Positions 26,091-30,192 of a stretch of 36,771 nt of DNA are shown piece by piece. Both the position numbers and the translations under genes were made by a program. The notes under the pieces were generated by a model. The model saw only the letters and a list, made by a program, of their open reading frames with translations. It was not told the origin of the DNA and searched no databases. The stretch's first letter is position 1. The number at the start of each line of letters is the position of its first letter. Source of the stretch: a virus. The stretch spans positions 1-36,771 of the IMG/VR virus record IMGVR_UViG_3300048839_000748, one strand, 5' to 3'.

Positions 26091-27065
26091 CTATCTGTTA
26101 ACTGGCCGTTTCAGTTTGGCGTCCGCTCCGGGTTCTAATTCCTGATGGACATTCGTCACCTTGACGAACCCATCAGGAATCTGGTCAGTAGCGTTAACTC
26201 CGTTGCAACATAGCGCAAAATACGGACACTTGAACGGGTGGAGACACGAGTTCGTGTTTCGGTACCACCGGCCCGTGCGCTGGCATTCCCGCAGCAATTG
26301 CTGCTGCTGCCACAGTTCGGCAAGAAACTCATCGAGGTCGGATTCGAGCCTTGGGATTTCGCGTCGCGCAAAATAAAAATCCGGTCGTTCGGTCAAGTCT
26401 AACGCAAGCCTGTCGCCGAATTGTGCGATGGTTTCCCTGACGCCGCGAATGAGTTTCGGACGGATCGACGGCTTGCGCACCACGTCGTACAGGACGGTCG
26501 TGACATCGTGCCCCATCACTCTGGCTGCGAGCATGTACCCGCTGATTTGCGTGTCGAGCCGGAGCCTCATCCAGTAATCGTCGTCGATGCTCGATGTGGT
26601 CTTGTGTTCGATGATGGCCAGTCGCCCGTCGGGCAGTTTGGCGATTTTGTCGATCTTGCCGGCGAACCTGAAGTTTGGCGTCACGCCGCCGGTTTCCGGG
26701 TTCTTGATTGGCAAAATGAACGCCTGTTCGGTGGCGACAATCTCGACGTTCTCCCGTCCCCACCGAAGGTGATAGCCGACGATCAATCGCGCGACAATCT
26801 CGCGCTCGATCATCCATTCGTCAACGTCTTCTTCGCTCGCACACCACTGCGGGACAACCTCGTAGCCTGCGACCGCGCGAGATGCAGACTCGACAGGATC
26901 GACGCCTTGTGCCAGCAGGTCGATGCCGAGGTGAAAAGCTGCGCCCATCCTGAGCGGCTGTGAATCGCGGTTGGGGCGAATGCCAAGCTCGTACGCGAAA
27001 TAATGCCTCCTCAAACACGACTTGGCGGAACTCATCCTCGAATGTGTTAATAGATTTTGTTGCAT
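26091..27065 (-). CDS. PD-(D/E)XK nuclease with Fe-S cysteines (Cas4/RecB-type exonuclease)
   Basis: Asp139 in GKID and Glu153/Lys155 in IIEHKTT form the nuclease core. Cys17 in SAKSC together with CLHPFKCPYFALC near the C-terminus gives the one-plus-three cysteine pattern that binds a 4Fe-4S cluster in Cas4 and AddB-like nucleases. It probably resects DNA ends for the Sak4-like annealing system. ATG 27065 is used; the frame is open further upstream but that part crosses the inverted repeat of the mobile element and was created by the insertion. It is the first gene of the leftward operon. Confidence 0.78.
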   Translation of the reverse strand: MQQNLLTHSRMSSAKSCLRRHYFAYELGIRPNRDSQPLRMGAAFHLGIDLLAQGVDPVESASRAVAGYEVVPQWCASEEDVDEWMIEREIVARLIVGYHLRWGRENVEIVATEQAFILPIKNPETGGVTPNFRFAGKIDKIAKLPDGRLAIIEHKTTSSIDDDYWMRLRLDTQISGYMLAARVMGHDVTTVLYDVVRKPSIRPKLIRGVRETIAQFGDRLALDLTERPDFYFARREIPRLESDLDEFLAELWQQQQLLRECQRTGRWYRNTNSCLHPFKCPYFALCCNGVNATDQIPDGFVKVTNVHQELEPGADAKLKRPVNR

Positions 27066-27182
27066 GGCCGACGACCTTATGGACTTTTTATCGAGTGTCA
27101 ACGGCGTATTTGTTGAAAAAAAATATTTAAAATAAAAATAACCATTTACGCGATAAACAATAAGGTGCGGAAAATTATTTTT
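27066..27182. promoter_or_regulatory. AT-rich leader of the leftward recombination operon, cut by the transposon
   Basis: The 117 bp between the nuclease start and the transposon include TTGACA on the minus strand (near 27095) and an A-rich block. Its other half now lies beyond the transposon at 29784-29835, next to the rightward HTH gene. Before the insertion this was a divergent control region of about 160 bp. Confidence 0.5.
27175..27182. repeat. Left 8-bp target-site duplication (TTATTTTT)
   Basis: Identical to 29784-29791, bracketing the 2,601-bp element. Confidence 0.88.
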
Positions 27183-27211
27183 CGGAAGTATGTATTTATT
27201 GAAAATAACCC

Positions 27212-27239
27212 TTGACTTCCGATTTTCAGTATGTATCAT
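27212..27239 (+). promoter_or_regulatory. Transposase promoter overlapping sub-terminal end-like repeats
   Basis: TTGACT (27212-27217) and TATCAT (27234-27239) are 16 bp apart. Between and across them are ACTTCCG (inverted end core) and AGTATGTAT (direct end core), so transposase binding could repress its own promoter. AAAGGA precedes the ATG at 27266. Confidence 0.45.
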
Positions 27240-27265
27240 AATATAAAGATTGGAAAGGAAAATTT

Positions 27266-28225
27266 ATGGCCACACACCAAGTGAAAGTCGGCGAACAGAA
27301 AGACGAGATCGTGCGAGTTATGCCACTAGTGTGTGGCGATGAAAGCGCGGCGGTAGAACTACTTGAAGAATTACGATGGGGCAATAATCCTGCTTGCCCG
27401 ACGTGCGGAAGCACCAATGTGTATAGCATAACTGGCCGTGATGGGAAGCGAGAAAAGAACTACCGATGGCGATGCCGTGATTGTAAAAGGTCTGGGTTAT
27501 TCTCGGTGCGTACCGGAACCGTCATGGAGCAAACGAGAATTCCTCTGCGATATTGGTGCTGGGCGTTCTGGCATCTTTGCTCTAGCAAGAAGGGTATGAG
27601 CGCTAAGCAGATTCAACGTCAAACCGGATTGTCCTATAAGTCGGCATTGTTTCTCCTCCACAGGGTGCGATTTGCGATGGCCGATATGGAAGGTGTGAAG
27701 CTTTCCGGCACCATTGAGGTAGATGAGACTTACGTGGGCGGAAAGCCTCGTCATAAAGGGAATAACAAGCGTGGCCGCGGCACAAAGAAAACTCCCGTCT
27801 TCGGCATGGTCGAGCGCAATGGGCGAGTGAAAACGCAAGTTGTAGCTGATGTGACTGGGGCGACGCTTAAGGGCGCAATTCGCGAAGTGGCCGATAATCA
27901 ATCTCGAATCATGACCGATGAGAATCGCGCGTACAGCGGCATCGGTGCAGAGTTTGCGGGCGGTCACAAGTTTGTAACTCACAGTGCAATGCAGTATGTC
28001 AATGGTGACGCGCATACAAATACTATTGAAGGCGTATTCAGCCTAATTAAGCGAGGCATGTACGGCATCTATCACAACGTGAGCAAGCGACACCTTCACC
28101 GTTATCTTGCCGAGTACGATTTCCGCTGGAATAATCGTAAAGTGAGTGACGGAGAACGTACGGTTGCTGCGATTCGAGGCGCGGAAGGCAAGCGATTAAT
28201 GTACCGTGAGCCGTCGTCAGTATGA
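27266..28225 (+). CDS. IS1595-family (ISXO2-like) transposase
   Basis: Catalyses cut-and-paste or copy movement of the surrounding element. An N-terminal zinc ribbon (CPTCGS and CRDCKR) is followed by a helix-turn-helix-like region (GMSAKQIQRQTGLSYKSAL). The DDE-type core has Asp153 in EVDETYVGG, Asp218 in MTDENRAY, and Glu255 in HTNTIEG, with the family C-terminal motif YDFRWNNRK. The 319-aa length is normal. Codons are more A/T-rich than in the phage genes, consistent with separate origin. Confidence 0.92.
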   Translation: MATHQVKVGEQKDEIVRVMPLVCGDESAAVELLEELRWGNNPACPTCGSTNVYSITGRDGKREKNYRWRCRDCKRSGLFSVRTGTVMEQTRIPLRYWCWAFWHLCSSKKGMSAKQIQRQTGLSYKSALFLLHRVRFAMADMEGVKLSGTIEVDETYVGGKPRHKGNNKRGRGTKKTPVFGMVERNGRVKTQVVADVTGATLKGAIREVADNQSRIMTDENRAYSGIGAEFAGGHKFVTHSAMQYVNGDAHTNTIEGVFSLIKRGMYGIYHNVSKRHLHRYLAEYDFRWNNRKVSDGERTVAAIRGAEGKRLMYREPSSV

Positions 28226-28278
28226 CGGTCAAAGAAAATACCGACTTTCCTGGATGATTGATCGCAAGCGTAAGAAAC

Positions 28279-29091
28279 ATGGCAAAGCGAACAATCAAAA
28301 TACGGCTCGGCGAGAAGGGAAACCATCTCGAGATTAGCACGCTAATTACCGTGCTTCAGGATACTGTTGGTATTTTACGCGGAATAGATAAAGCAATCAC
28401 TGGGGAACGATCGCCCGCCCTGCATTGGTTCATTCGTCGAATAGAAATGAAAAGTCCCCTTGAAGCGATCCTAGAAGCCGAAGTTGTAAACGATGGCGTC
28501 GTCGCGCCAGAAGTAGTTCGCCCCTTTATGCGCGGCCTGAAGGCTATGGAGAAAACTTCTGCGCCCCCTCGGTACTTCGGAGATCACGAGTTGACTCGTA
28601 CCAAGCGCATCGTTGATCTGCAACACAACGGTGTTCAGTTTGTCGAGTTCACCTCTGATCGCGATAAGCCGATCCGCCCCACGACACGAGTATCAGAGCA
28701 TATTCAATCCTTGCTCGGCCCGGCCCCAACCCGACCATACGAGCAGTTTGCTGAGATTGAAGGAACGCTTGAAGACGTATCGCTTCATCCAGATATTCCA
28801 CAGTTTGCTATCTACGACCCGCTTACCTATCAGCCGGTGGAGTGCTCTTTTGATTCACAAGACATTGACACAATCACGAATCTGATGAAACGAAAAGCGA
28901 GAGTATTTGTAACGGGAGTTGCCAAGTTCAATGCACGACACCATCCGGTATCTATTTGCGTTGAAAAGATTGAAGAACTTCCAGATCAAAAAGACTTGCC
29001 GCAGATCGGCCAGCTTCGGAAGGCTGGGTTGAACCTCACGAACGGGCGTGATCCGGTGGACGTTATTCGAGGCCTGCGAAATGGCAGATGA
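28279..29091 (+). CDS. Transposon passenger protein, probable antitoxin partner (270 aa)
   Basis: ATG 28279 is preferred over TTG 28258. It overlaps the PIN gene by 11 nt, the usual tight coupling of toxin-antitoxin pairs. The C-terminal half looks like a small beta-barrel (EGTLEDVSLHPDIPQFAIYD, then ARVFVTGVAKFNARHHPV). I know of hypothetical proteins of this kind next to PIN genes, but I do not recognise a named antitoxin family, and it is long for an antitoxin. Its role as partner is inferred from position. Confidence 0.6.
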   Translation: MAKRTIKIRLGEKGNHLEISTLITVLQDTVGILRGIDKAITGERSPALHWFIRRIEMKSPLEAILEAEVVNDGVVAPEVVRPFMRGLKAMEKTSAPPRYFGDHELTRTKRIVDLQHNGVQFVEFTSDRDKPIRPTTRVSEHIQSLLGPAPTRPYEQFAEIEGTLEDVSLHPDIPQFAIYDPLTYQPVECSFDSQDIDTITNLMKRKARVFVTGVAKFNARHHPVSICVEKIEELPDQKDLPQIGQLRKAGLNLTNGRDPVDVIRGLRNGR

Positions 29092-29614
29092 ATACAATGT
29101 CGCGGTGTGGGACGCTTGTGTGCTTATTAGTGCAATTGACCAAGCAAGCCCAAGGTGGCCTGCCATTGAACCGTGGCTGCGCGATGCTGAACGCGGTGAG
29201 TTTCAAATCGTGGTTCCAGAAACAGTAGTAGCAGAACTCCGATATTTGCCGGTCGCTACAGAAGAAGGCGTGCCTCAGGAAAGGCAAGACGATTTGATCT
29301 CGAAGTTTCTGCTTAACCCATACATCGTGCGGCGTTCGGTTCACCGTGGCATATCTGAGTTGGCGGCAACTATTGGTAGAAAGCATAAAAGCGTCAAGCG
29401 GGTTGGCGACGCAATCGTATTGGCCACCGCGCTATTCTGGCAAGTTCCCGTGGTTCATACCTATGACGGCGATGGTAAGAAGAATGGGTTACTCAACTTG
29501 GATTGTGTACTAGGCGACAAGACTAAATTACGTATCATGACGCCCGACTACGGTGCCAACACACTGTTCGGAACACCCAATAATGAAGAAGCCAAGAAGA
29601 AAAAAAGGGCCTAA
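29081..29614 (+). CDS. PIN-domain ribonuclease-like protein (177 aa)
   Basis: PIN domains cut RNA and often act as toxins. The acidic residues are in order: Asp11 in VWDACVLIS, Glu52 in VVAELRYLP, Asp110 in VGDAIVLATAL, and Asp129 in HTYDGDGK, so the active site looks complete. The C-terminus is Lys-rich. It is the third gene of the transposon and overlaps its neighbours on both sides. The likely arrangement is a toxin-antitoxin module carried by the transposon, which could stabilise the element in a phage or host genome. Confidence 0.8.
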   Translation: MADEYNVAVWDACVLISAIDQASPRWPAIEPWLRDAERGEFQIVVPETVVAELRYLPVATEEGVPQERQDDLISKFLLNPYIVRRSVHRGISELAATIGRKHKSVKRVGDAIVLATALFWQVPVVHTYDGDGKKNGLLNLDCVLGDKTKLRIMTPDYGANTLFGTPNNEEAKKKKRA

Positions 29615-29726
29615 ACCAGAAGTGCTCAAACTTAAAACACTGGTTGACTGGAAAGCGGCGCTAAAGAACGCACTCCAGAAACCCAAGCCCACAGACGGCT
29701 GGCCAAAAGTCAAGCTGGAAAAGTGA
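29583..29726 (+). CDS. Short basic passenger ORF (47 aa)
   Basis: ATG 29583 overlaps the end of the PIN gene. The product is Lys/Arg/Pro-rich with VDWKAALKNALQKPKP and a GWP turn near the end. A relative is recognisable at the right end of the 653-bp element. It may be a third member of the toxin-antitoxin module or an accessory of the transposon; no known family. Confidence 0.6.
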   Translation: MKKPRRKKGPKPEVLKLKTLVDWKAALKNALQKPKPTDGWPKVKLEK

Positions 29727-29783
29727 ATACGCTCCTCACCCCCAAGCCCGCCAATAAGTCATTTCAATAAGTACATACTTCCG

Positions 29784-29791
29784 TTATTTTT
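29784..29791. repeat. Right 8-bp target-site duplication (TTATTTTT)
   Basis: Identical to 27175-27182. Confidence 0.88.
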
Positions 29792-29835
29792 TTCCACACT
29801 TGACACCAAGACAGAAACTCTCAATCTTGGCGACC

Positions 29836-30192
29836 ATGACACCAGCAGAAGTCGTAATCGGCATGTTCGGCGGGACGGCGGCACTTGCCGAGATGCTCGG
29901 AATCACGCGCCAAGCCGTCAATCACTGGAATCTAATTCCGGCCAAATATCATCGGCAGCTGTTGCGTTTAGCCTGCGAGCGCGGGCTGTGGCTGACTGCC
30001 GACGATCTCATATGGGGACGCAACAATGGAACTAGAACCGTGGGAATCACTGGAAAAACCATCGAAATGGGACCGACTGGATTCAACGACGCGGGAAGCA
30101 CTGAAAAAACTGGGGTGGACGGAAAAACAGTGGAATCGACAGGAGGCGGTCTGGAAGACCGTGCTCAGGATGCTGCTCGAACAAAGAGTTGA
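29836..30192 (+). CDS. Cro/YdaS-like HTH regulator (118 aa)
   Basis: ATG 29836 is chosen; TTG 29800 is part of TTGACA. The segment FGGTAALAEMLGITRQAV followed by NHWNLIP is a Cro/YdaS-like helix-turn-helix, and RGLWLTADDLI follows as usual. Such proteins bind operators in phage control regions. The C-terminal ~50 residues are Gly/Thr-rich and are read from the same DNA as the next ORF in another frame, so this tail may not be under selection. It is the first gene of the rightward replication operon, 52 nt from the transposon. Confidence 0.7.
   Translation: MTPAEVVIGMFGGTAALAEMLGITRQAVNHWNLIPAKYHRQLLRLACERGLWLTADDLIWGRNNGTRTVGITGKTIEMGPTGFNDAGSTEKTGVDGKTVESTGGGLEDRAQDAARTKS

Follow-up and report, generated by a model that had tools for sequence, protein, structure and literature searches.

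A two-gene unit of a PIN-domain protein and an overlapping partner, carried by an IS1595-family element in a phage genome

Within IMG/VR virus record IMGVR_UViG_3300048839_000748, a 36,771-nt stretch of DNA analysed over its whole length (the window), a gene for a PIN-domain protein lies among transposon genes inside a phage, raising the question of what it does there and whether it forms a unit with its neighbours. The original prediction was that an IS1595-type element had mobilised an addiction-like PIN module into the phage, the PIN gene being preceded by an overlapping gene for a protein of no recognised antitoxin family (here protein X) and followed by a short Lys-rich ORF. Terminase, portal, and head-protease matches in a PHROG search of the window bear out the phage setting, and all three ORFs are present where they had been placed. 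The features of the locus are as follows.

26091–27239, minus strand: exonuclease gene, left flank of the element
27175–27182, no strand: left target-site duplication TTATTTTT, 8 bp, an exact copy of 29784–29791
27183–27204, plus strand: left terminal inverted repeat CGGAAGTATGTATTTATTGAAA, complementary to the right end at 21/22 positions
27212–27239, plus strand: promoter-like TTGACT-16-TATCAT inside the left end, facing the transposase and cargo; weak, 10/12 match to consensus
27266–28225, plus strand: IS1595-family transposase, 319 aa (NF033547 E=1.9e-61, PF12762 E=2.7e-42, PF12760 zinc ribbon E=2.3e-13)
28279–29091, plus strand: protein X, 270 aa, proposed antitoxin or partner
29081–29614, plus strand: PIN-domain protein, 177 aa, proposed RNase toxin (PF01850 E=5.1e-9)
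29583–29726, plus strand: 47-aa Lys-rich ORF, overlapping the 3' end of the PIN gene
29762–29783, minus strand: right terminal inverted repeat TTTCAATAAGTACATACTTCCG, 22 bp, pairing with the left end
29784–29791, no strand: right target-site duplication TTATTTTT, an exact copy of 27175–27182
29800–30192, plus strand: Cro/YdaS-like gene, right flank of the element

The element is complete and spans 2,601 bp (27183–29783) with the gene order transposase, X, PIN, 47-aa ORF, and its predicted IS1595 type is confirmed by the NF033547 transposase, the 21/22 terminal repeats, and the exact 8-bp duplication. Near-identical terminal repeats are present at the ends of a Phycisphaeraceae element (locus L009). 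The G+C content of the element is 49.7% compared with 57.9% for the remainder of the window, where 2.6-kb segments have a standard deviation of 1.5% and a minimum of 52.3%. In a consensus scan the count of promoter-like sites was near the shuffle mean, such sites being about equally common in shuffled sequence. Presumably a passenger-carrying ('transporter IS') element of the IS1595 family entered the gap separating two divergent gene clusters of the phage, and would have brought with it a self-contained X-PIN module. No empty insertion site could be demonstrated among relatives of the left-flank exonuclease, because these lack the right flank of the window.

Transporter IS elements of the IS1595 family with passenger genes are already known (Siguier, Gagnevin & Chandler 2009, as relayed in PMC3129680 and PMC8496243). 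As far as those accounts describe them, the window element resembles them in its IS1595 transposase, its terminal inverted repeats, and its passengers unrelated to transposition (X, PIN, and the 47-aa ORF), and itself has an 8-bp duplication; it differs in that its passenger is X-PIN and that its sister elements carry many defence and toxin-antitoxin genes.

The PIN protein has the complete set of acidic residues that had been predicted, with D11, E52, D110, and D129 invariant in 19 of 19 homologues, even at overall identities of 20–40%. The PIN part of the model matches the VapC structures 5x3t, VapC20, and VapC15, and no defence-protein match was found in PADLOC-DB 2.0.0. Its start overlaps the end of the X gene by 11 nt.

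Protein X has no match in Pfam, NCBIfam, PADLOC (PADLOC-DB 2.0.0), or PHROGs, in agreement with the prediction that the partner belongs to no recognised antitoxin family, and a PDB sequence search was also without a match. Two viral proteins match X over almost its full length, Q6NE06 of Leptospira phage LE1 (E=4.5e-9) and A0A8S5T657 of Myoviridae ctLIM9 (E=4.5e-8). An AlphaFold2 model (7 alignment rows, pLDDT 80, pTM 0.54) has an N-terminal alpha/beta domain, a barrel at approximately residues 154–233 with beta-beta-beta-alpha-beta-beta topology, and a C-terminal helical tail (243–267). As modelled, the N-terminal domain appears to be novel. The structure models drew their alignment rows from the window and related loci only. 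The PDB fold matches are mostly to OB-fold proteins (SSB, Stn1, RPA, LysRS, AspRS, ExoVII); the best is E=2.4e-3 and none falls below E=0.001, so an OB fold in X is likely, with some uncertainty.

M1 and Cys189 are the only positions identical in every row of a 21-row alignment of X proteins, and G162 and G213 come close to this. Cys189 (window 28843–28845), the sole invariant internal residue in the 21 homologues, is located in the OB fold. Many X proteins in this alignment share a C-terminal motif, DFTGGLxTxxYLxxLRNGR, and others terminate shortly after LPxxxDVRG. The long tail is absent from the X proteins of L056, L069, L191, L192, L194, and L205. The toxin-binding tails of antitoxins often share a conserved motif.

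Does this pair of genes occur together elsewhere? A tblastn search of plasmids and phages with X gave no match, and the same search with PIN identified only the Methylobacterium oryzae plasmid pMOC1, in which the genes behind an IS1595 transposase encode a hypothetical protein of 288 aa and, overlapping it, a 'VapC family toxin', with a 62-aa ORF after them. The 288-aa protein is homologous to X (23% identity, E=3e-9) and the pMOC1 PIN protein to that of the window (27% identity, E=1e-11). In searches with iterated profiles, the transposase proved to be followed directly by X and PIN in a Paraglaciecola arctica MAG (L016), a Marinosulfonomonas MAG (L056), Thalassococcus profundi (L069), and IMG/VR contigs L101, L108, and L113; at L113 the PIN match is strong (E ~1e-45) and that of X marginal (E 0.003–0.06), and we accepted this locus on the PIN score and its position. 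Pattern scans of viral and genome contigs with X or PIN alone gave no genuine match, and a candidate relative at L002 was discarded as an 18-residue chance match.

The expectation that the three genes would recur together near other IS1595 transposases thus held for X and PIN, as at pMOC1, L016, L056, and L069, and failed for the 47-aa ORF. This ORF has nothing in Pfam, NCBIfam, PADLOC, or PHROGs and no detectable homologue, and a leave-one-out profile misses it, so that we reject it as a conserved third gene of the module. Short basic ORFs occupy the same position in L003, L016, L056, L069, L101, and L108, and the 47-aa ORF appears to be conserved in position only, not in sequence. Many IS1595 elements, irrespective of the rest of their cargo, have near their distal end a member of a short ORF family with the motif RFKEAARELxxDDDExxFDExLKKIAK (L069:7015-7287, L108:7346-7516, L006:5142-5288, and approximately 40 other loci); membership of the window ORF in this family was not detectable.

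With X alone as the query, whole-genome searches gave matches in 14 of 385 genomes of the Thalassococcus class, in 4 of 369 of the Paraglaciecola class, and in the L009 phylum in 3 of 294 and later in 10 of 392, several of the ten being weak. At 24 of the 27 loci found with the X profile alone (16/18 and 8/9) PIN lies directly downstream of X, counting L202 by match position and L236 by visual comparison with the similar L238 and L239; the neighbours are therefore related in other genomes, the opposite of what would have spoken against the predicted module. At more than half of the loci that X alone detected there is no transposase next to the pair. Pseudomonas phage vB_PaeS_AV001 has X-PIN directly after its S24 repressor gene, without a transposon (L211:3459-4818), and four IMG/VR contigs have the same pair as AV001; the absence of a transposase at most loci and from AV001 indicates that X-PIN is a module independent of the transposon. 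A place beside the phage repressor is usual for exclusion genes expressed in lysogeny. The AV001 PIN gene is annotated as 'repressor protein' in the deposited record.

The X and PIN genes overlap by 4–17 nt in nine loci, suggesting that their translation may be coupled. The pair ranges over Alpha- and Gammaproteobacteria, Planctomycetota, and phages, and from these comparisons we regard X-PIN as shown to be a conserved, mobile, predicted two-gene operon with an intact catalytic site. At one locus X is present in three tandem copies, followed by only one PIN gene (L232:3089-5740).

More distant versions of the pair also exist, in which X-type proteins are coupled to other PIN subfamilies. IS1595 elements at L088:5960-7236, L100:5921-7292, and L164:5912-7275 carry a second pair, X2-PIN2, in the same cargo position, with an X-like partner followed by a PIN-like gene. 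It differs from X-PIN in its divergent PIN, which has a weak Pfam match, and in its X2, which is homologous to X by profile comparison (hhalign E=6.8e-6) at ~13% identity; the homology of PIN2 to PIN is weak, and the PIN2 of L100 reaches PF01850. Cys189 of X is conserved in the X2 family too. Remote X proteins with a canonical PF01850 PIN were found at L233, L238, and L239, and at two of these loci type I restriction-modification operons contain or adjoin the X (~320 aa) and PIN genes (L233:4047-8161, L239:1770-6955).

The carriers were compared using 160 loci gathered with the transposase profile, of which 115 have recognisable ends and 95 of those 115 an exact 8-bp duplication. Nearly all of the related IS1595 elements carry extra genes. 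The window transposase clusters with Phycisphaerales transposases with a support of 100/100, a grouping that suggests a Planctomycetota host. X-PIN is cargo in at least 10 elements spread across the transposase tree, and the notion that it marks a single transposase lineage was ruled out (9 label changes for 10 carriers, compared with a random mean of 9.6). Closely related transposases have quite different cargo. The scatter of the carriers, together with the position of L069 (X-PIN) as sister of L088 (X2-PIN2), indicates that cargo is exchanged among IS1595 elements.

A Pfam scan of 142 cargo ORFs from these elements recognised DUF3800, DUF1828 (5), methylases, GmrSD, SocA/Panacea, and AIPR, as well as RelA/SpoT, M78, DUF4411, and type I subunits. 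Among the passengers that could be recognised, DUF3800 is the most frequent (17 of the 142, e.g. L104:2807-3793). PADLOC matches in the cargo of sister elements include AbiU (E=1.6e-114), PD-Lambda-5, DruM-type and type I methylases, and candidate families, and sister elements also carry other PIN modules, restriction-modification genes (type I M+S), and M78 with DUF4411. Known anti-phage genes lie as passengers between recognisable ends at L004, L076, L080, L098, L104, L120, L125, L133, L157, and others, and the passengers of this group are AbiU, PD-Lambda-5, type I M+S, a DruM-like methylase, GmrSD, and RelA/SpoT. Since there was no control set, enrichment of IS1595 cargo for defence genes is an impression.

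What, then, might X-PIN do? We consider it reasonably probable that PIN is an RNase toxin of the VapC kind that X restrains, the two forming a toxin-antitoxin or abortive-defence unit, a reading favoured by the order in which the genes decay, the homology of PIN to VapC, and the defence-rich company. At L199 and L200, both decayed elements, X stands alone beside a decayed transposase with PIN absent, and X remains open in L195, where PIN has a frameshift, and in L192 and L206, where PIN is shortened, as expected if an unopposed toxin is harmful. X and PIN would bind each other, with X masking PIN, probably via its C-terminal tail; the tail would not be the sole contact, as the long tail is absent from some X proteins. 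PIN would be an RNase that halts growth by cleavage of tRNA or rRNA, as VapC toxins do, and could be freed by loss of X or by a trigger, for example when a rival phage infects the cell, and the freed PIN may penalise loss of the element (addiction), abort the infections of competitors, or both. Against this reading, X is far larger than typical antitoxins and has no DNA-binding autoregulatory domain by family search, and L231 shows the reverse decay, with an in-frame stop in X and PIN open. A model of an X-PIN fusion (read-through, 12 alignment rows, no linker) was uninformative on binding and gave no confident interface, with a pTM of 0.44 and a tail pLDDT of ~41.

The OB fold of X also leaves room for a nucleic-acid-handling role, in which a two-part RNase would use X for sensing or for handing over the substrate: the OB fold would bind nucleic acid in single-stranded form, or the anticodon arm of a tRNA, and present it to PIN, the complex being active in defence. 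The nearest structures to the fold do include SSB, Stn1, RPA, and the anticodon-binding domains of LysRS and AspRS, but no OB-fold match passed E=0.001 and OB folds bind proteins too. Sister elements with defence-rich cargo and the remote X-PIN pairs at the type I restriction-modification operons of L233 and L239 are consistent with such a role; decay of the toxin first with X retained is a better fit to an antitoxin, and we judge the two-part RNase unlikely, if still worth weighing.

Control of IS1595 transposition by X-PIN, for example by cleaving the transposase mRNA or acting on transposition intermediates, is very improbable: in at least 10 elements the pair does lie directly 3' of the transposase and seems to share its transcription unit, but most loci found with X alone have no transposase alongside, the AV001 pair has no transposon, and closely related transposases carry quite different cargo. 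Also very improbable is that X and PIN are non-functional hitch-hikers, ordinary genes acquired by chance, which the diverse cargo of this IS group might suggest but which sits badly with catalytic residues kept invariant at 20–40% overall identity, a gene order kept across phyla, and repeated acquisition by unrelated elements.

If PIN is a toxin restrained by X, the closest known system is VapBC, which X-PIN resembles in its PIN toxin with invariant acidic residues and a VapC-like model, its upstream overlapping partner gene (adjacent to PIN at 24 of 27 loci), and its small, mobile two-gene form. VapB, in contrast, is a short antitoxin of the AbrB, RHH, Phd/YefM, or HTH type, whereas X-family partners, at 250–300 aa, combine an OB fold with an N-terminal domain that was not recognised; as both size and domain differ, X is not VapB by definition. 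X-PIN probably functions as VapBC does, with a partner from a new family. PIN toxins as repeatedly acquired transposon cargo also have a precedent in Tn3-family transposons, whose toxin-antitoxin passengers include PIN toxins of PF01850 and PF13470 (PMC7157771); these elements have another class of transposase, and their PIN partners are RHH_6, Phd/YefM, or AbrB proteins, not X (PMC7157771). Our literature search found neither an OB-fold antitoxin for VapC nor a description of the X family and its pairing with several PIN groups, and it did not find IS1595 elements with toxin-antitoxin or defence cargo, of which an earlier description, for example in the 2009 IS1595 paper, is possible.

A broader proposal, which we put forward tentatively and at rather less than even confidence, is that X founds an undescribed superfamily of OB-fold partners that control several PIN subfamilies and are exchangeable within a defence-shuttling group of IS1595 elements able to arm phages against phages. 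X-PIN suggests a new family of antitoxin-like partners for PIN nucleases, and the pair in Pseudomonas phage AV001 is a tractable example. Single-transposase IS1595 elements are suggested to be an overlooked and very small vehicle by which toxin-antitoxin and anti-phage genes may be swapped among bacteria and phages.
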